Source: Geothrix sp. 21YS21S-4
GTDB taxonomy: Bacteria; Acidobacteriota; Holophagae; Holophagales; Holophagaceae
DNA length: 64,000 nucleotides
Assembly: GCF_030845995.1 (NCBI RefSeq)
Contig: NZ_CP132719.1
Span: forward strand, 1,736,001 to 1,800,000
Direction of reading: 5' to 3'
Program-made: the position numbers and the translations under genes
Shown here: positions 14,107 through 44,520 of the stretch, in pieces
How positions within the stretch are numbered: the first letter of the stretch is position 1
How the letters are laid out: each line of letters opens with the position of its first letter
Notes under the pieces: generated by a model
What the model was told of the DNA's origin: nothing
Database searches by the model: none
Seen by the model: the letters and a program-made list of their open reading frames with translations, nothing else

Positions 14107-17100
14107 CTAGGGTTTTGCAGGGCTGTTCAAGTAAGAATAATCTCTACAATCATTAATCACAAACTGTCCTGGTGTAATTTGGTTATCGTTAAAAACTTTA
14201 GTAGGATCATCAGTAGCTAATTTGCTTGTAATCATCTTACCATTAATCACAAAAGTAGGAGCTCCCGCTTGAATTTGGGCTTTATTCTCTGGACTTGGAT
14301 CCCAATAATAATTTGTTAATACTATCCCGCTCGGGAAAGTGGCAATAGGATCCCGATAAAAGTTAGGCATATAATTCGCACCATTCAATATTGAATAAGG
14401 GTTTGACCAAGCAGTAATTATAGATTTATCTAGATTTATTTTGTTGACCCCATTGTTAGCAGTGTGAATGAAGACACCACAAACTTTATTGTTGAGCATC
14501 GAGGAATTTGTTATATCGATGTTATAACCATCAGCAGCAGATTTGCCTTTAACCCCAACGGCTATTTCACAATCTTGAATTGTAACATTATTCATTTTCA
14601 GGTTCGTCGAATTAACGTAAACGCCATTACCACCTTCAGGGAAAGAGCTAGCAACTGAAACAGCATCTTTAAATACTCCTCCCTCAATATTTATATTCAA
14701 AACCTTGCCAGCATCCCCTTCAGCACAAACCCCCGCTTTGCCAGAGATAGGAGCAAGTGATTCATATAATAGCTCACCCCAACTGTTACAATATAAAAAA
14801 TTGTACGTTCCATTAGAATTTATATTAGCATTAGTCCAATTATCGACAGCGTATGCTGCAAAACCTTTGGAGTTTGCATTTGAGAAGCAGTTTCTCAAAA
14901 AGATATTATCACAAGAAGACATGTATATAACTCCGCAAGAACCGGCTAATCTAGCAGTAATATTTTCTAAACATATATTTGATGACTCAGCGATAAAAAT
15001 CGCATGTCCTCCACTAGATATTGCCCACTCAGCACGCTCGGAGCCATAAACGTTTGGCGCATTCACACTATCTACAAACCCCCAAAATTCACCTTTTGCC
15101 TCAATACGGATATTTTTTAATCTCACATTAGAACAATTATCTAATGCAAATGTGCTGTGATAGCAGGTGGGTTTTAATGCTTTATCCTGTACCGATGGAT
15201 GAAGCCAAGTGGGCCAATTTGTAGAAGATCCTCCCTGTTTTGAAACTTGTCCTGAAATGGTGATATTATTTTTATTTCGCACTGCAATAGATCCAACATC
15301 TACATAGACTTTTTTAAGGGGGTCATAAACTAGGGCTGGTTCGACAAAATATTCTCCCGCAGGAATCACGATATTCCATCCGTCATTTATCACTCTATTG
15401 GCAAAATTTACAAATGTATTGTCTGATGATTTTGTTTTTACACCCCACCATTGCGGAATAACGCAAAAAGGAACTCCATCAATCTTAGGTAGGATATCTC
15501 CAGCATCGCCACCCACAGCAAAAACTGTTCTTAAATCTGCATAAATTGAATTATTTATTCTGAATGTATAATTATTAGCAAACTCAATACATCCTGATTC
15601 TTCAAATCGGAGAGAACTGCCAATTGGGATTCTTATATTTTTATCGCTTAATACGATTCTATCATAAACGATGATTTGGTTATTTTTTATACCTAATTTA
15701 ATTTGTTCACCAGAGGCAAAATAACTTGTTACATCCCCCTTCAAATGAACCAAGTAGCTTCCCATTTCAATTCCGGTTAGGTTTTGATTTTTTGCAATAT
15801 CTATAATATCATAACATTTAAAATTAGCATTAGAAACTACTATATTGTAATCAGAGGCAAAATCATATTGTAAATCATTTAAAATCATATATGTATCATT
15901 ACCATCAAAGTTGATACCTTTAATTGATCCAAGATTTTCAAATTCTGAAGCCAAATTAATGGTATAGCCTACTTTAAAATCAGATCTTACGTCGCCTTGC
16001 AGGAATATCAAATAACTTCCGGATTCGTAATAATTCCCCGATGAAACGCGGGATGTGTCTTTATTTATTTCAAGAATATTATAATATTGCTGCGTTAGAT
16101 CTGAAAACAGAAACCCATATGGAGGTATATAACTTAGAGTTAAATTATCCAAAACGACGAACGTTTTATCGTCAGCGAGCCCAACCCCTTTCACCAACCC
16201 TGCATTTTTAAAGCCTTTGGCAATTTTTATTTCAAGATTTTCCGAAAAACCATCTCGAACATCGCCTGACAGATAGATTAAGTAACTCCCTCTTTCATAG
16301 CTATTCCCAGACGAATTCCGAGTCAGATTCTCATTGATTCCCGCGATATTATAATATCTGTTTGTTGCAGAAGAATACAAATAATCATATCCCGGTTTGT
16401 AATTATATTTTAAACTATTTAAGACAACAAATGTATTTACACCTGCCAGTCCATAATTTTCAACTTTCCCTGAATTCTCGACATATGTTCCAAGATTTAT
16501 GGTTGCTCCTATTGGATATCCTGACCTCACATCACCTGGAAGATAAATCAAGTAGCTACCAGTTTCACTATGATTGCCTGAAGAATCTCGTGTGGTGTTC
16601 GCATAAGCATCTATGATATTATTTTGTTGTTGTAATTTATCTGAAAACAAATAGTCGTACGGTGGTTCATAACTCAAATTTAAACTATTTAAAACAACGA
16701 ATGTATTATTGCCAGCAAGGCCAACATTCTCCACCACTCCGGCATTTTTAAAGCCTTTGGCAATTTTTATTTCAAGATTCGCCGAGAAACTACTTCGAAC
16801 ATCTCCGGATAGATAGATTATATAACTACCGCTTTCATAAGTGTTTCCGGACGAATCTCGAGTCATATTTTCGCAAATTCCAGCGATATTATAATATCTA
16901 TTTGTTGTAGAAGAGTACAAATAGTCGTAGCCTGATTTGTAATTATATTTTAAATTATTTAATATAATAAATGTGTTTACTCCTGCCAGTCCATAATTTT
17001 TAACATTTCCTGAATTTTCAAGTAACACATTAGTATTAGTACAGCCAATACCAGTACTGTTAATCATATCCTGGGCTCGTAAACAGAAGTTACACACCCA

Positions 17101-17142
17101 AACGAGTATCAATGCGCATAAACAGCGAGGGATCCATTTCAT
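14107..17142 (-). CDS. Large secreted repeat protein with beta-helix domain, horizontally acquired
   Basis: 1011 residues, AT-rich, with codon use unlike all neighbours. A signal peptide (CLCALILVWVCNFCLRA) leads into five tandem units of about 90 residues (roughly 49-500), each holding NTFVVLN, a PPYDYLFS/PGYDYLYS word, SSGN, GSYLIYL-GDVR. Units 1 and 3 resemble each other most, as do 2 and 4, so a two-unit block of 540 bp has been duplicated. The C-terminal half (about 560-960) has PQWWGVKT, IPAGEYF and runs of Asn-rich strands typical of right-handed parallel beta-helix proteins of the pectate-lyase/tailspike type. TAGGAG before ATG 17142 fixes the start. A surface polysaccharide-binding or -cleaving role is plausible; no catalytic set was recognised. 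Confidence 0.75.
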   Translation of the reverse strand: MKWIPRCLCALILVWVCNFCLRAQDMINSTGIGCTNTNVLLENSGNVKNYGLAGVNTFIILNNLKYNYKSGYDYLYSSTTNRYYNIAGICENMTRDSSGNTYESGSYIIYLSGDVRSSFSANLEIKIAKGFKNAGVVENVGLAGNNTFVVLNSLNLSYEPPYDYLFSDKLQQQNNIIDAYANTTRDSSGNHSETGSYLIYLPGDVRSGYPIGATINLGTYVENSGKVENYGLAGVNTFVVLNSLKYNYKPGYDYLYSSATNRYYNIAGINENLTRNSSGNSYERGSYLIYLSGDVRDGFSENLEIKIAKGFKNAGLVKGVGLADDKTFVVLDNLTLSYIPPYGFLFSDLTQQYYNILEINKDTSRVSSGNYYESGSYLIFLQGDVRSDFKVGYTINLASEFENLGSIKGINFDGNDTYMILNDLQYDFASDYNIVVSNANFKCYDIIDIAKNQNLTGIEMGSYLVHLKGDVTSYFASGEQIKLGIKNNQIIVYDRIVLSDKNIRIPIGSSLRFEESGCIEFANNYTFRINNSIYADLRTVFAVGGDAGDILPKIDGVPFCVIPQWWGVKTKSSDNTFVNFANRVINDGWNIVIPAGEYFVEPALVYDPLKKVYVDVGSIAVRNKNNITISGQVSKQGGSSTNWPTWLHPSVQDKALKPTCYHSTFALDNCSNVRLKNIRIEAKGEFWGFVDSVNAPNVYGSERAEWAISSGGHAIFIAESSNICLENITARLAGSCGVIYMSSCDNIFLRNCFSNANSKGFAAYAVDNWTNANINSNGTYNFLYCNSWGELLYESLAPISGKAGVCAEGDAGKVLNINIEGGVFKDAVSVASSFPEGGNGVYVNSTNLKMNNVTIQDCEIAVGVKGKSAADGYNIDITNSSMLNNKVCGVFIHTANNGVNKINLDKSIITAWSNPYSILNGANYMPNFYRDPIATFPSGIVLTNYYWDPSPENKAQIQAGAPTFVINGKMITSKLATDDPTKVFNDNQITPGQFVINDCRDYSYLNSPAKP
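15950..17030. repeat. Tandem 540-bp repeat inside the secreted repeat protein gene
   Basis: The same 30-plus-base words recur exactly 540 bases apart (for example at 16202 and 16742). Each 540-bp block codes for two diverged 90-residue units, so the array is a duplicated dimer. Confidence 0.8.
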
Positions 17143-17234
17143 TACAACACTCCTAACGAAGCTACGTGCCCAAACACACGTTAAACTGGATTCTAGCATC
17201 TACATAGCAGGCCTAGTACAACCAGGGCAAGTGC

Positions 17235-35229: not shown

Positions 35230-35658
35230 CTACCAAGGCAACATCTGCTCCAAGCGCTGGTCCTCCCTTTCTTGTCGACGGATGTATTCCCGCACTGTTG
35301 CTTCGTCGCGCCCCACGGTCGATACGAAATATCCTCGGGCCCAGAAATGCTGCCCAACAAAGTTCCGCTTCCTCTCTCCGTAGACTCGAGCCAGGTGAAT
35401 GGCGCTCTTCCCCTTGATGAATCCGATCACCTGCGATACCGAATACTTCGGTGGAATTGAAATCAGCATATGGACATGGTCACCCATCAGGTGCCCCTCA
35501 ATGATTCGGCTTTCCTTCTGCTCTGCCAGCTTCTTCAGGACTTCTCCAAGGTGCGGCCTCAACTTCTCGTAGATCGTCTTCCTCCGACACTTCGGCACAA
35601 AGACCACGTGGTACTTACACTCCCATCTGGAGTGGCTTAGACTTTCTTCTGAGTCCAT
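35230..35658 (-). CDS. tnpA: IS200/IS605 transposase TnpA (Y1 HUH)
   Basis: 142 residues, intact. RWECKYHVVFVPKCRRK opens the domain; the HUH pair is in MGDHVHMLISIP, and the nucleophilic tyrosine is expected in the C-terminal helix ATVREYIRRQ. HFWARGYFVSTVG is typical of the family. AGGAG eight bases before ATG 35658 decides the start over two upstream in-frame ATGs. No tnpB is present, as in IS200-type elements. Confidence 0.92.
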   Translation of the reverse strand: MDSEESLSHSRWECKYHVVFVPKCRRKTIYEKLRPHLGEVLKKLAEQKESRIIEGHLMGDHVHMLISIPPKYSVSQVIGFIKGKSAIHLARVYGERKRNFVGQHFWARGYFVSTVGRDEATVREYIRRQEREDQRLEQMLPW

Positions 35659-35808
35659 CTCAGTTCTCCTCATGTGTGCTTGGCGGCTCACATGAAGATT
35701 TCTGCGGTGGACTCCTGTATATGTCAAACATCTACTGCCTCCCCGGCACAGCCGGGGGCTTTCCTATGAGTTGGTAAGCGCCGCGAGCCTCCAAGAGCGC
35801 CTCCAGGC

Positions 35809-35848: not shown

Positions 35849-35924
35849 GCCAACTTAGCTCAGCTGGTAGAGCAGCTGATTCGTAATCAGCAGGTCGCAG
35901 GTTCGAATCCTGTAGTTGGCTCCA
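35849..35924 (+). tRNA. tRNA-Thr (CGT anticodon)
   Basis: Full cloverleaf: acceptor GCCAACT with AGTTGGC, D stem GCTC/GAGC, anticodon stem GCTGA/TCAGC around loop TTCGTAA (anticodon CGT), T arm GCAGG-TTCGAAT-CCTGT, and encoded CCA. Its 3' part from the anticodon loop on is the left attachment site of the integrated element, so the present 3' half may derive from the element while keeping the tRNA intact. Confidence 0.97.
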
Positions 35925-35925
35925 A
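35879..35925 (+). repeat. attL: 47-bp direct repeat at the tRNA 3' end
   Basis: These 47 bases, from the anticodon loop to one base past CCA, recur exactly at 42746-42792. Position within a tRNA and an integrase next to the distal copy identify it as an attachment site. Confidence 0.93.
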
Positions 35926-36363: not shown

Positions 36364-36455
36364 CCATTGTGTGCCTTCAGCCCGGACCCCGCAAGAAGGG
36401 GCGTTCAATTTTGCGGACGGCGCCAACGGCCCCCGCAGACATCCGGAGGCCACAC

Positions 36456-36710
36456 ATGGCCCAGATCACCACAACCCCCATTGAGGGCGCTTCCCTGAAG
36501 TGCCCTTACCTCACCACCCAGCAGGCTGCGACCTTCATCGGTTGCAGCCGCCACACCCTTGAAGTGCTCCGAATCAAGGGTGGCGGTCCAGAGTTCATGA
36601 AGGTCGGGCCGCGCCGCGTGGTTTATCTTCAGCGCGACCTCGAAGCCTGGGTCGAAGCAGGGCGCAGGAAGAGCACGGCGGACGATACCGTCGCGCGGGC
36701 GCGTCGGTAG
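36456..36710 (+). CDS. Excisionase/AlpA-like helix-turn-helix protein
   Basis: 84 residues. YLTTQQAATFIGCSRHTLEVLRIKGGGPEFMKVGPRRVVYLQRDLEAWVEAGRR is, in sections, the winged-helix HTH_17 fold of AlpA/excisionase proteins. In small integrative elements these act as recombination directionality factors or activators of the int/rep genes. GGAGG before ATG 36456 fixes the start, after a structured leader. Rep begins 60 bases downstream. Confidence 0.85.
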   Translation: MAQITTTPIEGASLKCPYLTTQQAATFIGCSRHTLEVLRIKGGGPEFMKVGPRRVVYLQRDLEAWVEAGRRKSTADDTVARARR

Positions 36711-36770: not shown

Positions 36771-37754
36771 ATGAGCGCATTCAGAGCCCTCCCCGAGGGC
36801 CGCAGGGACGCCGTCTGCAAAGACGGCACGCCCTCGGCCCGCCCTGAGAAATCCAATCCTTCGCCGAATCGGCGTGGGGACAGCACGAACCAAAGCCGCC
36901 TCGGAGAGGCGGCCTTGAAAACACATGAACAAAGTTGCCCCTCAAGCTCTGCGCGGGTTTCAGGCCACGGCGCCCAAGCCCAGGCCGCACTTGTGACCTA
37001 TCTGGTAGAGGAGGGGTTCATCGAAGTGGCTGGTGAAGTGGCCCGCTGTTGCTCCATGCCTCGGCCAATGAATTCCTGGGTGACGATCCACCAACGGGCG
37101 GATGGAAAGCGCCATGTTGGGGGCCTCGCACACTGTGGACGCATGGTGTGTCCCATCTGCGCGCCCTATCTCATGGCGAGCCGGATGGAGGTCCTAGAGC
37201 GTCGAGTGGCGCAGCTCAAGCAGAAGGAAGGTCTGCGCTGGTTCTTGTTCACGCCGACCATTCGGCATCGCAAAGGCGCGAAGTGGCGTCCGCTGGTAGA
37301 GGTCATGCGCTCCGTGTCTCGAAAGGTGATCCAGCGAAAACCATGGAGGGATGCTGTGGTCGGCTGGGTTCGTGTTCTGGAAACCACCTACGGGTGGGCT
37401 GGCCATCACCCACACGAGCATTACCTGCTCGTGATGAAGGCTTCCGAGGGGTGGGATGCGGAGGGCTTCTTCCAGTGGGTCCAGGAGACCTTCGAGCGTC
37501 TGATAAGAGAGGAAGGCCGGACTTGCGATTGGCCGCAGGGATGGTGGGATGAAGTCGAGAAGGGCAAGGAGATTCAGATGCTGCGCTACTTTGGTGAGGC
37601 CGAGAAGATGGGAACGAATGGTGGTGACGCGCTCCATGAGGTCATGGGCTCCACGACGAAACATCAACCGGTGTGGAGTCTTCCAGCGGCAGCCTTCGCG
37701 GAAGTTTGGGCCGACAGCAAGAACCTTCGATGGTCGGAGTTGGCGGCGTCATGA
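36771..37754 (+). CDS. Rolling-circle replication initiator-like HUH protein
   Basis: 327 residues. A cysteine cluster CGRMVCPIC (residues 122-130) precedes FLFTPTIRHRKG (motif 1, near 158) and the HUH metal site GHHPHEHYLLV (motif 2, residues 211-221). Tyrosine 273 in MLRYFGEAEK is the candidate nicking residue (motif 3). This order matches Rep proteins of rolling-circle plasmids and some satellites. The first 75 residues are low complexity and overlap hairpins, so the true start may be downstream, for example GTG near codon 75. Its stop overlaps the next start by four bases. Confidence 0.75.
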   Translation: MSAFRALPEGRRDAVCKDGTPSARPEKSNPSPNRRGDSTNQSRLGEAALKTHEQSCPSSSARVSGHGAQAQAALVTYLVEEGFIEVAGEVARCCSMPRPMNSWVTIHQRADGKRHVGGLAHCGRMVCPICAPYLMASRMEVLERRVAQLKQKEGLRWFLFTPTIRHRKGAKWRPLVEVMRSVSRKVIQRKPWRDAVVGWVRVLETTYGWAGHHPHEHYLLVMKASEGWDAEGFFQWVQETFERLIREEGRTCDWPQGWWDEVEKGKEIQMLRYFGEAEKMGTNGGDALHEVMGSTTKHQPVWSLPAAAFAEVWADSKNLRWSELAAS

Positions 37755-38792: not shown

Positions 38793-39215
38793 TTATAGTA
38801 GTTTGTTGATTTCATTTTTGAAATCAGAAGGACGTCCTTTCAGGACGTATTTACAATTCATTTTTTCAAGTTCTCTTCCGGCTCCTTCATCATCATGTAC
38901 TGTATATGCCATGACCGCAGAGCCAGGATACCCGTGATCGCGGCAATATTGTGCAGCAGCAATCCCAGGGAATCTTTCTATGAGTGGGGTTCGGTCGATC
39001 ATTTTGGGAGTAACGGCATCTAGTGGAGGTATATTCATGTCAATAATGACCAAATCAAATTTCTTTTCCCCCAAAATGGATATTGATTCTGGGAGTGTTT
39101 TTACTGTTGTTACGATAAGGTCTTTTGATTCAAGAAATTCATAGACCCACCCTAAATGCTCGGGTTCATCCTCTACGATTAAGACGTTCTTTGTTCTAAC
39201 GGGTATCTTTTTCAT
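38793..39215 (-). CDS. Stand-alone response-regulator receiver domain
   Basis: 140 residues, a single receiver domain with no output domain. Acidic pocket VEDEPEH (E15, D16), phospho-acceptor D59 in VIIDMNIPP, T105 in MAYTVHDD and K126 in YVLKGRP are all present, so it should be phosphorylatable. The insertion after D59 (about 20 residues, with TPKMIDRTPLIERFPG) is unusual. The gene overlaps the kinase by 20 bases and ends a three-gene operon. Likely it relays phosphate from the kinase to control the nuclease, by inference from the operon. Confidence 0.85.
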   Translation of the reverse strand: MKKIPVRTKNVLIVEDEPEHLGWVYEFLESKDLIVTTVKTLPESISILGEKKFDLVIIDMNIPPLDAVTPKMIDRTPLIERFPGIAAAQYCRDHGYPGSAVMAYTVHDDEGAGRELEKMNCKYVLKGRPSDFKNEINKLL

Positions 39216-40188
39216 ATCGCCATTTCTCCGTGCTTTCTTTATCGATTGTATATTCTGGGAACCTGATTCTGAAAGTTACTTGTCTTAATTTGGTTGCGTA
39301 AATTGCTTCAATTTTTGCATTAAACGCTACTTTTAAAATGTTTTTACAAATATACAAGCCAATACCTGAACCACTTGATTTTATCTTTACAGCTTCTTTC
39401 CCTCTTGTCCCCCTCTTGAAGATGTTGGATATTTCTTCTTTGTTAAAACCAATTCCTGTATTTATAACATCAATGATTAGATTTCCTGTGGTTTTTTGAG
39501 GTTTAATTTCGATTGTGATTTCTGTATCTGGGTCACAGTATTTTAAGGCATTTTCTAGCAAATTCATGAATACTTGTTGCAGCAAGTCTTTATGACCTCG
39601 CACTTTGTACTGTGTCGTTGAGTCAGTAATGCTGATTCTCACCCCTCTTTTTTCAGCAGGCTCTTGAAAGAATTGTACTGCATGCATGGCTACGAGGGGG
39701 ATTGTTGCGATTCCAAGTCGTGCACGTAAGGACTCTCTACCTGACTGAGTTGTGAGTTGGGAAAGGTATGCAAGATTGCGAACGAGCTCAATTGTCATAG
39801 CAAGCTGTGCACGAACAGTTTTTAATTTTTGCTGTCTCTTCTCTTCCTTGATGGTGCCATCAATTACATTGTCGATTGTTCCAATAACTGCATTAAGTGG
39901 AGCAATGATTTGATGTGTAAAATTGAGAATCAAGGGATTATCGATCTCCGTCTGACTCTCCTGAGAATCCTCGTCGTCTATATCGCTAGGGATTTCGGGG
40001 AGAGAAGGGGGAGGCGGGCTGATGGGAATCCCTTCTGCCGAGGGGAGAGGTGTCGTTACGGGCGGGAAATGGGGGATGGGTGGGTTTTCTGGTGTTATTT
40101 TTTCAGCTTTCTGCAATTTTATTGTTCCCGTGCTGGGCTTTTTAGGTGGAGGTAATGTGAAAATTGGTTGTTTTTTTGGGTTATTCAT
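39196..40188 (-). CDS. Soluble sensor histidine kinase
   Basis: 330 residues with no transmembrane segment. Residues 1-80 are Pro-rich and likely disordered. The H-box is LNFTHQIIAPLNAVIG with H92; the ATPase domain has NLLENALKY (209-217), DVINTGIGF (240-248) and GSGIGLYI (273-280). No recognisable sensor domain exists, so the signal may come through a partner protein or the disordered arm. It starts nine bases after the nuclease gene and overlaps the receiver gene. AT-rich like its two partners. Confidence 0.85.
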   Translation of the reverse strand: MNNPKKQPIFTLPPPKKPSTGTIKLQKAEKITPENPPIPHFPPVTTPLPSAEGIPISPPPPSLPEIPSDIDDEDSQESQTEIDNPLILNFTHQIIAPLNAVIGTIDNVIDGTIKEEKRQQKLKTVRAQLAMTIELVRNLAYLSQLTTQSGRESLRARLGIATIPLVAMHAVQFFQEPAEKRGVRISITDSTTQYKVRGHKDLLQQVFMNLLENALKYCDPDTEITIEIKPQKTTGNLIIDVINTGIGFNKEEISNIFKRGTRGKEAVKIKSSGSGIGLYICKNILKVAFNAKIEAIYATKLRQVTFRIRFPEYTIDKESTEKWRYEKDTR

Positions 40189-40197
40189 GGCGTACCT

Positions 40198-41148
40198 TCA
40201 TTGTTGGCGCAAAATTATTTTAATTTGATTTATATCAGCAGTTATTTCAAGATTTGACCACAGGGAGATGATTCTGAACGCTTCCGTTACGGCGGATGCA
40301 CTGAGGTCTATTGAAGGCTGAATATAGAATACAGTGTCTTCAGCTGTTTCAATGGTGGTTCTATCTGCTGGTAAGATTTTAATTGTATCGGATCTATTGA
40401 AATATCTAATGGAAGCCAATAGCGCTCTCAACCCATGACAATCCGCACCTGATAGGGAAACTAATGGGTCTACATTACACCAATCATATAAATCTTTATC
40501 GAGGCGAAATTTTTTCCAGTTGCCACAATCACCGAGTTTGGCCGACTCAGTCCGAACGGAAATCAATTCTGATAATGCGGCAGATAGTTCAATCGACATT
40601 AAAAAATTTGAGGAAATAGGGTCGATTGCTAACAATCCGTATAGACCTTGGACGACCTTTGTCAGAAATTGAGTTAAGGAGAATATGGAAGATTCTATAA
40701 TTTTGTCATTAAATTCTAGTCCATACTTTATTAATAAAACGGATTCATGTGAGATTTTTCGTTCTAACTCGACAGAATCCCAGACCCTAACTATCGGCCT
40801 TCTCCTCGCTCTGTTCCAATTCGATATTTCTGTTTTGCAATTAGGGCTATAGCTGGTGGTAGTGCATAGAAGCAAATAATCTGCTCCATGATTGTCGGCA
40901 TATGCGATTTTTCCGTATACAGTTGGCCAATCAATAGATTTTGAGTATCTTTTACATTCAACATACCATTTTTGCATTTCAATATTGCCGCTTAAGTCAA
41001 TGGAAAGTGCTTGACCCTCAATGTCTCGTCCTCCATCAGCGCCAGGAGTTCTCCACACCGCATTCTGAAGGCCATTAAGGATCATTAAGTCATATATTAA
41101 ATTTTCAAACTCGGTGGGAGTCAATTTCAGCAGTTTGCTTCGGACCAC
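40198..41148 (-). CDS. Mrr-like PD-(D/E)XK restriction endonuclease with unknown C-terminal domain
   Basis: 316 residues. LTPTEFENLIYDLMILNG and GADGGRDIEG, then WYVECKRYSK, are the Mrr-type nuclease core, with D42, E64 and K66 as the expected catalytic residues. QFGK-like downstream elements (YADNHGADYLLLCTTTSY) fit. The remaining 170 residues match no domain I recognise and may be the regulatory or sensing part. A GTG start is supported by GAGGTG at good spacing. It is first in an operon with a histidine kinase and receiver, an arrangement I do not recognise from catalogued restriction systems. Confidence 0.82.
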   Translation of the reverse strand: MVRSKLLKLTPTEFENLIYDLMILNGLQNAVWRTPGADGGRDIEGQALSIDLSGNIEMQKWYVECKRYSKSIDWPTVYGKIAYADNHGADYLLLCTTTSYSPNCKTEISNWNRARRRPIVRVWDSVELERKISHESVLLIKYGLEFNDKIIESSIFSLTQFLTKVVQGLYGLLAIDPISSNFLMSIELSAALSELISVRTESAKLGDCGNWKKFRLDKDLYDWCNVDPLVSLSGADCHGLRALLASIRYFNRSDTIKILPADRTTIETAEDTVFYIQPSIDLSASAVTEAFRIISLWSNLEITADINQIKIILRQQ

Positions 41149-41387: not shown

Positions 41388-42578
41388 TCATTCTCTTCCC
41401 TCTGGCTCTGACTTCAATGCAGTCTCCAGCGCCAAAGCGACCCTCTCACTGTTGCTTCGGTGCTGTGAGTTGGCCAAGTGGGCATACCTTTTGGTGGTGC
41501 TCGCTTGGCTATGGCCGAGAAGAGCCCCTATCATTTCAAGGCTCATGCCACCCTGAGCCGCATAGCTTGCGAAGGTGTGGCGAAGGTCGTGGATTCGTAC
41601 GCCTAGGATCTTTGCTTTCTCACGGATGGCGTCCCAGGGTTTCTCTAGGTTCACTAGGTTAGTGCCTTCCTTGTCGCCTGCGATGACGTAGGGGTTATTG
41701 AGCATCTGAGGCAGAGTCTCCACCACTGCGACGGCAGGCTTGTTTAGGAAGACGGCCTTGGCACCGGTTTTGGAGTCCTTGAGGCGCAGAACCCCGCTCT
41801 CAAGGTCCACCTCGTCCCATTGCAAGCGCAGAATTTCGTTGAGTCTGGCGCCGGTGAACATGAGGAGGCGAATGGCGGCAATGGCGAAGAGGGACTGCTC
41901 CTTGGTCTTCTCCATGGTGGTGAGAACCTCTGCGAGGCGTCGAAGCTCGGCAGCTGAAAGAAATCGTTCTCTGGAGTGTTCCTTGAATTTCTGGATGTAG
42001 AAGCAGGGGTTCGAGGCCTGGGGGCGGTAGCCCCAGAGTTCGGCCATTTTGAGCATTTTCGACATGACGGCCAGTACGCGGTTGGCTTGGTAGGGCGTGG
42101 CGCGGATGCTGTGGTGAAGCTTCGCAATGTCGCCAGGCTCCAGATCCCGCACGAGGCGCTTGCCGAGTTCGGGAACGATGAAGCGGGCGATGGCTTCCCT
42201 GTACTGGCGCTGCGTGGTGGCCTTGGTTTTCGTCTCTACATGTTCCTCAAGGAATCGGTTGGCTAGTTCGTTCACAGTTGGCGCGTCGCGCTGCTCTGTG
42301 AGCTTCTTGTGCGGGTCTTCACCTTCGAGGATTTGGAGGCGGATCTTCTGCGCCTTCTTCCGGGCCTGGTCCACGGTTATGACGCCGTAGCGACCGAGCG
42401 TGATCCAGTGCTGCTCTGCGCGTTTCGTGTACTTGAACGCGAAAACCTTCGTGCCGGAGGTCCACACGCGGATGCCGAAGCCGGGCATGTCGCGATCCCA
42501 CACGGTGTAGGCCTTCTCGCCGGGTTGAAGGCTGTCGACCAGTGTCTTGGTGAACCGTTCAGTTGGAGTCCGTGGCAT
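41388..42578 (-). CDS. int: Tyrosine recombinase (phage-type integrase) of the tRNA-Thr element
   Basis: 396 residues, intact. The N-terminal DUF4102 arm-binding domain (TKTLVDSLQPGEKAYTVWDRDMPGFGIRV) is followed by a SAM-like core-binding domain and the catalytic domain with R in FTGARLNEILRLQW, HDLRHTFAS, LGHSQASTTKRYAHL (final Tyr). It lies next to attR and is oriented inward, as in P4-like elements that target tRNA genes. A perfect 8-bp dyad lies just before its start and may be an arm site or operator. Confidence 0.96.
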   Translation of the reverse strand: MPRTPTERFTKTLVDSLQPGEKAYTVWDRDMPGFGIRVWTSGTKVFAFKYTKRAEQHWITLGRYGVITVDQARKKAQKIRLQILEGEDPHKKLTEQRDAPTVNELANRFLEEHVETKTKATTQRQYREAIARFIVPELGKRLVRDLEPGDIAKLHHSIRATPYQANRVLAVMSKMLKMAELWGYRPQASNPCFYIQKFKEHSRERFLSAAELRRLAEVLTTMEKTKEQSLFAIAAIRLLMFTGARLNEILRLQWDEVDLESGVLRLKDSKTGAKAVFLNKPAVAVVETLPQMLNNPYVIAGDKEGTNLVNLEKPWDAIREKAKILGVRIHDLRHTFASYAAQGGMSLEMIGALLGHSQASTTKRYAHLANSQHRSNSERVALALETALKSEPEGRE

Positions 42579-42745: not shown

Positions 42746-42792
42746 ATTCGTAATCAGCAGGTCGCAGGTTCGAATCCTGTAGTTGGCTCCAA
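42746..42792 (+). repeat. attR: second copy of the 47-bp tRNA-Thr segment
   Basis: Identical to 35879-35925. It is only the 3' part of the tRNA and cannot form a tRNA by itself. Confidence 0.93.
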
Positions 42793-43030: not shown

Positions 43031-43606
43031 ATGCAATTCCGGATTCTTCCTGCAGGATTATTATTCTTGGGTTCATATTTTCCACTCTCAGTAATCCTCG
43101 CATTGCAAGATATAAAATTGTCAATTTGGGGCGGTCCCTTATGGAAGCAGTGTATCGCACATAAATATATGATCTTTGAACACCCCTATCTTTCCATTAT
43201 TGGTATTTTGGGGACAGGGTTGTGCTTTTTTATTACTATATACCTACTTCAACACATTAGATATAAATACCCAATTACCGTAGTAGAAGCTAAATCAATC
43301 CCCAGTGAGTTAATTGGTTATAGTTTTCCTTATATTGTTTCGTTTATGGGAGTGGATTACGCATCTTTAGGGAAGATTGCGGGTCTTGCGGCATTCCTCT
43401 TCTGGCTATTCATTATTACTTACCGTGCCGGTCAAATCATCATGAACCCACTATTACTTGTATTTGGGTGGAATTTGTATGAAGCGAAGATTACCATTGG
43501 AAGTCAACAAAGGATTGTAAGAATATTATCAAATCAAAAATTAGTGCCAGGAAATTATCTAAGTGAGGAAATTCAACAAAATTATATTTGCAAGAAGGGT
43601 GAATAG
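43031..43606 (+). CDS. kwaA: Kiwa anti-phage system membrane subunit KwaA
   Basis: 191 residues with four hydrophobic segments (about 4-25, 52-75, 95-112 and 115-133) and a C-terminal cytoplasmic tail. NPLLLVFGWNLYEAKI after the last segment, and the size, fit KwaA of the two-gene Kiwa defence system, in which a membrane KwaA works with KwaB. Identification rests mainly on the clear KwaB partner starting two bases downstream. Strongly AT-rich compared with the core genome, so acquired. A GGGGGG run serves as ribosome site. Confidence 0.8.
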   Translation: MQFRILPAGLLFLGSYFPLSVILALQDIKLSIWGGPLWKQCIAHKYMIFEHPYLSIIGILGTGLCFFITIYLLQHIRYKYPITVVEAKSIPSELIGYSFPYIVSFMGVDYASLGKIAGLAAFLFWLFIITYRAGQIIMNPLLLVFGWNLYEAKITIGSQQRIVRILSNQKLVPGNYLSEEIQQNYICKKGE

Positions 43607-43608
43607 AC

Positions 43609-44520
43609 ATGCCTAGTTTTAATGAGTGGAAAAATTTTAACTATACACAATCAACAGTGCAGTTGTGGGTATTTAAAAAAAGCTCAACTGATGCAAAATA
43701 TAAGGGATGGCATGTCAGAACTGATGGAGGAATTGAAGTTATGTTTCGTAATGCAGTAATTAATCAATTATCCAAAATATCAGAGCATTTTGAATACACG
43801 CATATATCTCAAAACAATGAGTCCAGCTGTATGGAACACCCTCTGGAGGATTGTGAGGGTTTGATTGCATTACTTGATATTGTGGATCAGCCTGAAGGGG
43901 AACATGTAGCAGAAAATGTTAAACAACTCCGTGGATCGACGGGTTATTTGGTTAAATTTCAATTTAATGATGAAACCGTTTATGCAGTGAAGAAAACAGC
44001 GCCATCCTGGAGTCCTAAAATTAGAAAGTCATTAATTAATGCTTTATTTATTCAGGGCGAACTCTCAGTCGTGCCCAACGAGGAATTCACCTTCAGTTCA
44101 TTTTTTGATTTTTTCTGTTTCAATGAAAATGTATATATTATTGGCAAGCGCTCATTTGAATCAACCATAGCAGAGAAAAGTGTATATAAAAAGAATTTTT
44201 CAGATTTAAGATTATCTCCTGAATTTATTAGTGTATTCAGCGAGATGACTTCGATCGTTGAATTTGTTGGTGAAAATGCAATGCATCTTCGCAGAATGGC
44301 CACTATTCAAAAGAAAGAAGTATACAGGAATCCCAATTTTTTAATCGAATTAAAAAGAGTGAGTGACATGAGAAATTGGGGTATTGAATTTGATGCAGAA
44401 GGCAGAATAGTACCAACTCTTAGTACTGCTAAAATCATCATACAAGTATTATTAGATCATCGTTTATTTAGCGAAATTACATCAAATTACTATGACGTTC
44501 CAGATGCAATCGTGGTGTAA
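43609..44520 (+). CDS. kwaB: Kiwa anti-phage system effector KwaB (DUF4868)
   Basis: 303 residues, about the known KwaB length. The C-terminal DUF4868 pattern is visible: VGENAMHLRRMATIQKKEVY, then a Phe-Leu-Leu helix, then NWGIEFDAEGRIVPT and a final LLDHRLFSEITSNYYDVPDA. KwaB binds DNA and acts downstream of KwaA, which senses infection at the membrane, according to published work on Kiwa. It forms a two-base-gap operon with kwaA and ends before a bidirectional terminator. It lies outside the att-bounded element, just beyond attR. Confidence 0.85.
   Translation: MPSFNEWKNFNYTQSTVQLWVFKKSSTDAKYKGWHVRTDGGIEVMFRNAVINQLSKISEHFEYTHISQNNESSCMEHPLEDCEGLIALLDIVDQPEGEHVAENVKQLRGSTGYLVKFQFNDETVYAVKKTAPSWSPKIRKSLINALFIQGELSVVPNEEFTFSSFFDFFCFNENVYIIGKRSFESTIAEKSVYKKNFSDLRLSPEFISVFSEMTSIVEFVGENAMHLRRMATIQKKEVYRNPNFLIELKRVSDMRNWGIEFDAEGRIVPTLSTAKIIIQVLLDHRLFSEITSNYYDVPDAIVV

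Follow-up and report, generated by a model that had tools for sequence, protein, structure and literature searches.

Two-component signalling is a very common sensing system of bacteria, and to our knowledge Detocs is the only defence family that is based on it. The Detocs effector, typically a PNP ATP nucleosidase, forms one protein with a receiver, a second receiver is free and the kinase has a TPR-like sensor. Detocs has been described as a three-gene, two-component system (PMC11249213). Two other proteins of relevance here are DivL, a kinase-shaped domain that reads a phosphorylated receiver and has neither kinase nor phosphatase activity (PMC4211667), and ChpT, a kinase-shaped phosphotransferase (PMC3433190). 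Within a window of 64,000 nucleotides from the genome of Geothrix sp. 21YS21S-4, which consists of a single 3.08-Mb contig, we analysed a triplet of minus-strand genes (38793-41148) in the order nuclease, kinase and receiver:

40198..41148, minus strand: Mrr-type PD-(D/E)xK nuclease, 316 aa, GTG start (Mrr_cat, 1.3e-13)
39196..40188, minus strand: soluble histidine-kinase-like protein, 330 aa (HATPase_c, 2.7e-21)
38793..39215, minus strand: single-domain receiver, 140 aa (Response_reg, 4.4e-10)

The triplet resembles Detocs, a three-gene defence operon made from a histidine kinase and receivers, but nuclease and receiver are encoded separately in all 18 copies that we know of, there is a single receiver gene, the window kinase has no TPR by Pfam and the kinase has lost two catalytic residues. 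The nuclease shares the catalytic fold and the PD-(D/E)xK residues with Mrr and type IV nucleases and with the Mrr-type nuclease of Avs4, from which it is set apart by the lack of a target-recognition or NTPase domain, by a distinct C-terminal half and by its obligate kinase and receiver neighbours. None of the PADLOC 2023 models fits the triplet as a set; weak single-domain matches of about 30-70 bits were obtained with PDC-M58A (nuclease), PDC-M60B/C (receiver) and PDC-M43B (kinase), which belong to three separate candidate systems. No published description of the triplet was found in the freely accessible literature that was searched. Kaur et al. 2020, a BREX paper from 2026, an NLP study, a phage-hotspot study and CapK/CapS concern other arrangements and were set aside. 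The DefensePredictor paper (PMC13092281) names HATPase and REC among the domains of predicted, unvalidated systems, and these predictions could overlap with the triplet. The triplet is thus probably an apparently undescribed, putatively defensive two-component system that differs from Detocs. If this is true, a second design with a separate effector would suggest that relays have been recruited to immunity more than once.

Recurrence and cohesion of the triplet

Homologs were searched with alignments seeded from two nucleases, two kinases and two receivers, one each from the window and from a Diaphorobacter plasmid, on which tblastn against plasmids had located nuclease and receiver together with the kinase in between. 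As a single-sequence query the window nuclease gave no match to genome and viral contigs, while the Diaphorobacter-based alignments succeeded. Altogether 18 records contain the triplet in the same order, namely the window and 17 others from Alpha-, Beta- and Gammaproteobacteria, one plasmid and viral contigs. The same gene order in 17 other records confirms that the triplet is real and more than a chance arrangement, and answers the question of recurrence that a sequence-only reading of the window had raised.

The nuclease alignment detected 31 relatives in GTDB genomes, 12 of them close (E <= 3e-45) and 19 distant (E >= 2e-19). All 12 close relatives are part of a triplet (Sphingopyxis, Nevskia, Xanthomonas, an alphaproteobacterium, Bradyrhizobium, Massilia, Rubrivivax, Comamonas, Pseudoduganella, Castellaniella, Limnobacter and Pseudomonas), compared with none of the 19 distant ones, which match over the catalytic half only. 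On viral contigs two triplets (L030 and L031) were supplemented by two more (L065 and L066) from a scan led by the kinase, in which all four matches turned out to be triplets. The receiver family occupies one place per host genome in each of nine genomes searched, and this place is always the triplet. Members of the kinase family were detected in one of 297 Acidobacteriota genomes (333 bits; the next best matches, at 116 bits, were treated as generic kinases) and in two of 399 Burkholderiales genomes, both already-known carriers, and among 150 related genomes no nuclease relative was found beyond one marginal catalytic-domain match. The distribution is therefore patchy and the triplet rare. 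The sequence-only reading had also raised homologs with non-defence outputs as a possible objection; no member of the kinase or receiver family was seen together with another output.

Several further matches were not counted as triplets. A phage collection gave no match to the nuclease, and its sole kinase match (MT835515) was rejected as a generic kinase of the HAMP type that adjoins an OmpR-type regulator. Four other plasmid nucleases (H2-H5) have nothing but the catalytic domain in common with the triplet nuclease and no adjoining annotated kinase or receiver. A receiver match on a Photobacterium plasmid (H7) lies in a record without annotation.

In the window, nuclease and kinase are separated by a 9-nt gap and kinase and receiver overlap by 20 nt, and the three genes have 39-41% G+C in a window of 64% G+C. 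Coordinates, strand, junctions and AT-richness had all been given correctly by the sequence-only reading. Both features are general: the nuclease-kinase junction is overlapping or at most 12 nt wide in 18/18 loci and the kinase-receiver junction overlaps in 16/18, although gene starts were read from ORFs and some are uncertain, and in every locus the triplet has a higher A+T content than the DNA around it. Catalytic domain, kinase and receiver have correlated pairwise distances (r 0.72-0.81, Mantel p 0.0005), for which shared ancestry alone could be a sufficient cause.

The kinase-like protein and the receiver

Besides HATPase_c, Pfam analysis of the kinase revealed a sub-threshold HisKA match (0.015), and none of the three proteins has a further convincing domain. 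No sensor or membrane domain was recognised by Pfam, as had been claimed before, and 17 of the 18 kinases have a short N-terminus. A proline-rich N-terminal arm of 80 residues is peculiar to the window kinase and so cannot be a general sensor. Residues were compared with those of solved kinases and of nine generic kinases that the same model had retrieved. H92, at the position assigned earlier, the proline five residues on, the N-box asparagines N209 and N213 and the G2 glycines G275 and G277 (box 275-278) are kept in 18/18 copies. The residue following the phospho-histidine is glutamine throughout the family and glutamate in eight of the nine controls; the remaining control, an otherwise normal kinase, has glutamine as well, and by itself this exchange need not be disabling. 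The aspartate of the G1 box, present in 9/9 controls, is replaced by Gly, Asn or Ser in all 18 copies, and the window kinase reads NTGIGF where DxGxG is expected (Asp to Asn). This aspartate contacts the adenine, and the acid after the histidine assists autophosphorylation. The earlier statement that the kinase keeps its ATP motifs was thus wrong for G1 and right for N-box and G2.

The predicted fold of the kinase is nevertheless a normal DHp+CA core, with HK853 (Z 22) and DivL (Z 21.4) as close matches in models for which the Diaphorobacter rows were left out of the alignments; the fold matches listed did not include ChpT and Spo0B, which does not speak against a likeness to them. The invariance of N-box and G2 makes us favour a nucleotide site that is unusual or conditional over the lack of one, and the protein would either have an altered, weak or conditional site or act as a ChpT-like phosphotransferase or phosphatase. 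It would share with ChpT and Spo0B the kinase shape and the transfer of phosphate through the DHp histidine, which it keeps; ChpT, however, has lost the ATP lid, while N-box and G2 are invariant here, and the triplet encodes no upstream hybrid kinase. DivL is alike in that a kinase-shaped domain may read receiver phosphorylation, but it has lost the histidine (Tyr) and controls a kinase, whereas the triplet kinase keeps the histidine and the suspected reader is the nuclease.

These residues also bear on an ordinary relay of the Detocs kind, in which the kinase would autophosphorylate with ATP upon infection and pass the phosphate to the receiver, thereby freeing the nuclease. The invariant DHp histidine, N-box and G2, the intact receiver site, the normal core of the kinase model and the control kinase with glutamine after its histidine are all compatible with it. 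We still regard it as unlikely, given that both the G1 aspartate and the acid after the histidine are absent from every copy and that the kinase has no sensor domain, and the plain ATP-driven phosphorelay of the sequence-only reading is weakened accordingly. With two catalytic residues missing from every copy of a kinase that is intact in other respects, the role of the invariant histidine becomes a sharp question.

In the receiver, D16, E17, D59 and K126 are present in 18/18 copies and residue 105 is Thr or Ser. The earlier assignment of D59, T105 and K126 holds with this variation, as does the lack of an output domain by Pfam. Without an output domain, the receiver most likely acts by protein contact, and nuclease and kinase are its likely partners.

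The nuclease and a model for its control

The Mrr_cat match of the nuclease (51.5 bits versus a cutoff of 21) lies in a catalytic half of about residues 1-145 with D42, E64 and K66, which is followed by a C-terminal half (146-316). D42 and K66 are found in 18/18 copies and E64 in 17/18, with Asp in the remaining one; the earlier reading had placed all three correctly. Mean pairwise identity is 49% for the catalytic and 19% for the C-terminal half. In the AlphaFold model (pLDDT 87) the predicted catalytic fold has AspBHI (Z 13.3) and MspJI (Z 12.5) as its nearest matches and is also that of the Avs4 N-terminal domain (Z 10.7). AspBHI and MspJI are modification-dependent, and the likeness to them would fit an Mrr-like type IV restriction enzyme that stands on its own, cleaves modified DNA and is only tuned to the cell state by kinase and receiver. 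This is very unlikely in our view, as the nuclease showed no recognisable domain of a known modified-base reader and its close relatives always occur with both partners.

The C-terminal half is modelled mostly with confidence, except for a weak loop at 264-269, and comprises helices 148-175 and 180-205, followed by a strand, a helix, two strands, a helix and two strands. This predicted arrangement of a helical hairpin and an alpha/beta sandwich can be read as the succession of elements in a DHp hairpin and a minimal CA domain without lid. Two histidine kinases align with the nuclease model over residues 145-316, DesK as bound to DesR (7ssj; Z 8.0, rmsd 12.3 A) and YycG (4zki; Z 7.5, rmsd 7.3 A), both near background, and sequence profiles showed no similarity of the nuclease C-terminus to the kinase family. 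The structure prediction called for by the sequence-only reading yielded a defined hairpin and sandwich, but a likeness to histidine kinases at near-background scores, and we give a kinase-shaped C-terminus about an even chance.

The most economical model would be a post-translational control of the DNase that runs from the kinase via the receiver to the C-terminus of the nuclease. The Mrr-type nuclease would be the effector, silent in healthy cells and released upon infection through protein contact, not transcription. The receiver, which is fully equipped for phosphorylation of its aspartate, would be the switch, and the kinase-like protein would set its phosphorylation state via the invariant histidine. 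The receiver would in turn act on the possibly DHp+CA-shaped C-terminal domain of the nuclease, much as DivL reads phosphorylated DivK. Such gating is favoured by the invariant receiver site and kinase histidine, the missing receiver output, the model of the C-terminal half and the precedents DivL and ChpT; the two catalytic residues lost in all kinases and the near-background kinase likeness of the C-terminus speak against it. Docking of the receiver on the nuclease, the direction of the switch and the defence function itself are what we infer here. A more specific version combines a DNase that has its own histidine-kinase-shaped docking domain and is gated by receiver phosphorylation with a sensor formed by the altered nucleotide pocket of the kinase. 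The pocket, with the G1 aspartate lost and N-box and G2 kept, might sense nucleotide changes induced by infection, so that no separate sensor domain would be needed; in this complete form the proposal is doubtful.

Carriers and neighbours of the triplet

In the window a 6.9-kb integrative element carries the triplet as cargo and is adjoined on its right by a Kiwa system:

35879..35925, plus strand: left attachment repeat, perfect 47-bp direct repeat formed by the 3' end of a tRNA-Thr gene (tRNA at 35849-35924)
36369..36710, plus strand: excisionase-like HTH_17 gene of the element (Pfam)
36771..37754, plus strand: Rep_1 replication-protein gene of the element (Pfam)
41388..42578, minus strand: tyrosine integrase of the element (Arm-DNA-bind_3 and Phage_integrase; Pfam)
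42746..42792, plus strand: right attachment repeat, perfect 47-bp direct repeat
43031-43606 and 43609-44520: KwaA and KwaB of Kiwa, just outside the right attachment repeat, 35-36% G+C

The integrative element suggested by the sequence-only reading is thus real, with 47-bp repeats, a tRNA-Thr 3' end and an internal tyrosine integrase; a third copy of the 24-bp core of the repeat was not found in the window. Its integrase and Rep_1 genes next to the triplet could point to a role in the mobility or replication of the element itself, which we consider extremely unlikely since the carriers differ while the triplet stays constant. They include, besides the tyrosine-integrase element, serine-recombinase neighbourhoods, phage-like contigs, a plasmid and plain chromosome. 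Recombinases were detected near two copies (L037 and L038) and phage genes near two others (a terminase at L066 and a lambda-type tail gene at L031), and other copies have ordinary chromosomal neighbours or lie on short contigs.

A further possibility is an addiction module similar to toxin-antitoxin systems, with the nuclease as a toxin that is silenced by kinase and receiver and that chiefly stabilises the mobile element. The tight translational coupling and the occurrence on an integrative element, a plasmid and phage-like contigs agree with this. Such a module, however, needs no conserved phosphorylation site, whereas the histidine and the whole receiver site are invariant; moreover, the effector gene comes first, two partners are required and several copies are located in plain chromosome, and we regard addiction as quite improbable.

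Recognised defence genes are found near four of the 18 copies (raw count), namely Kiwa in the window (KwaA 6.6e-67, KwaB 2.4e-107), Gabija (L030), a type I R-M system (L043) and the SIR2-domain PDC-S25 together with PDC-S31 (L044). The proximity to defence genes about which the sequence-only reading had asked thus applies to these four and not to the other 14, and it is supportive of a defence role without proving it. From the gene order kept in 18 records, the split between close and distant nuclease relatives, the kinase-led scan and the receiver counts, together with tight junctions, AT-richness, the att-bounded element, neighbouring defence, phage and recombinase genes and the patchy rarity, we lean towards a conserved, horizontally spread three-gene defence module in which the kinase-like protein and the receiver would gate a DNase. 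That only 4/18 copies lie beside defence genes argues against it; an anti-phage role nevertheless appears most likely. Of the phosphorelay defence system suggested by the sequence-only reading, the recurring unit, its mobile DNA and the occasional proximity to defence genes have stood, and the plain relay has lost ground.

Some observations concern the surroundings of individual copies. One tRNA-Thr site of the window holds two adjoining defence-type modules, the triplet and Kiwa. In the type I R-M system next to the Limnobacter triplet, an HsdM-like and an HsdS-like gene flank that of a 302-aa protein without Pfam match (L043:6888-7796). Downstream of the Castellaniella triplet, at a distance of about 0.55 kb, lies the gene for a 444-aa RelA/SpoT-domain protein (L042:2942-4276), which could be a small alarmone synthetase or a toxic synthetase used for defence. 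In the window, a small transposase gene of the IS200/IS605 type, named by eye, is located at 35230-35727, and about 0.66 kb around it has four further copies of 100% identity in the genome. Finally, a single AT-rich ORF of 1030 aa (14107-17199) has a foreign composition of about 35% G+C, an internal repeat and possibly a beta-helix-like C-terminal region.
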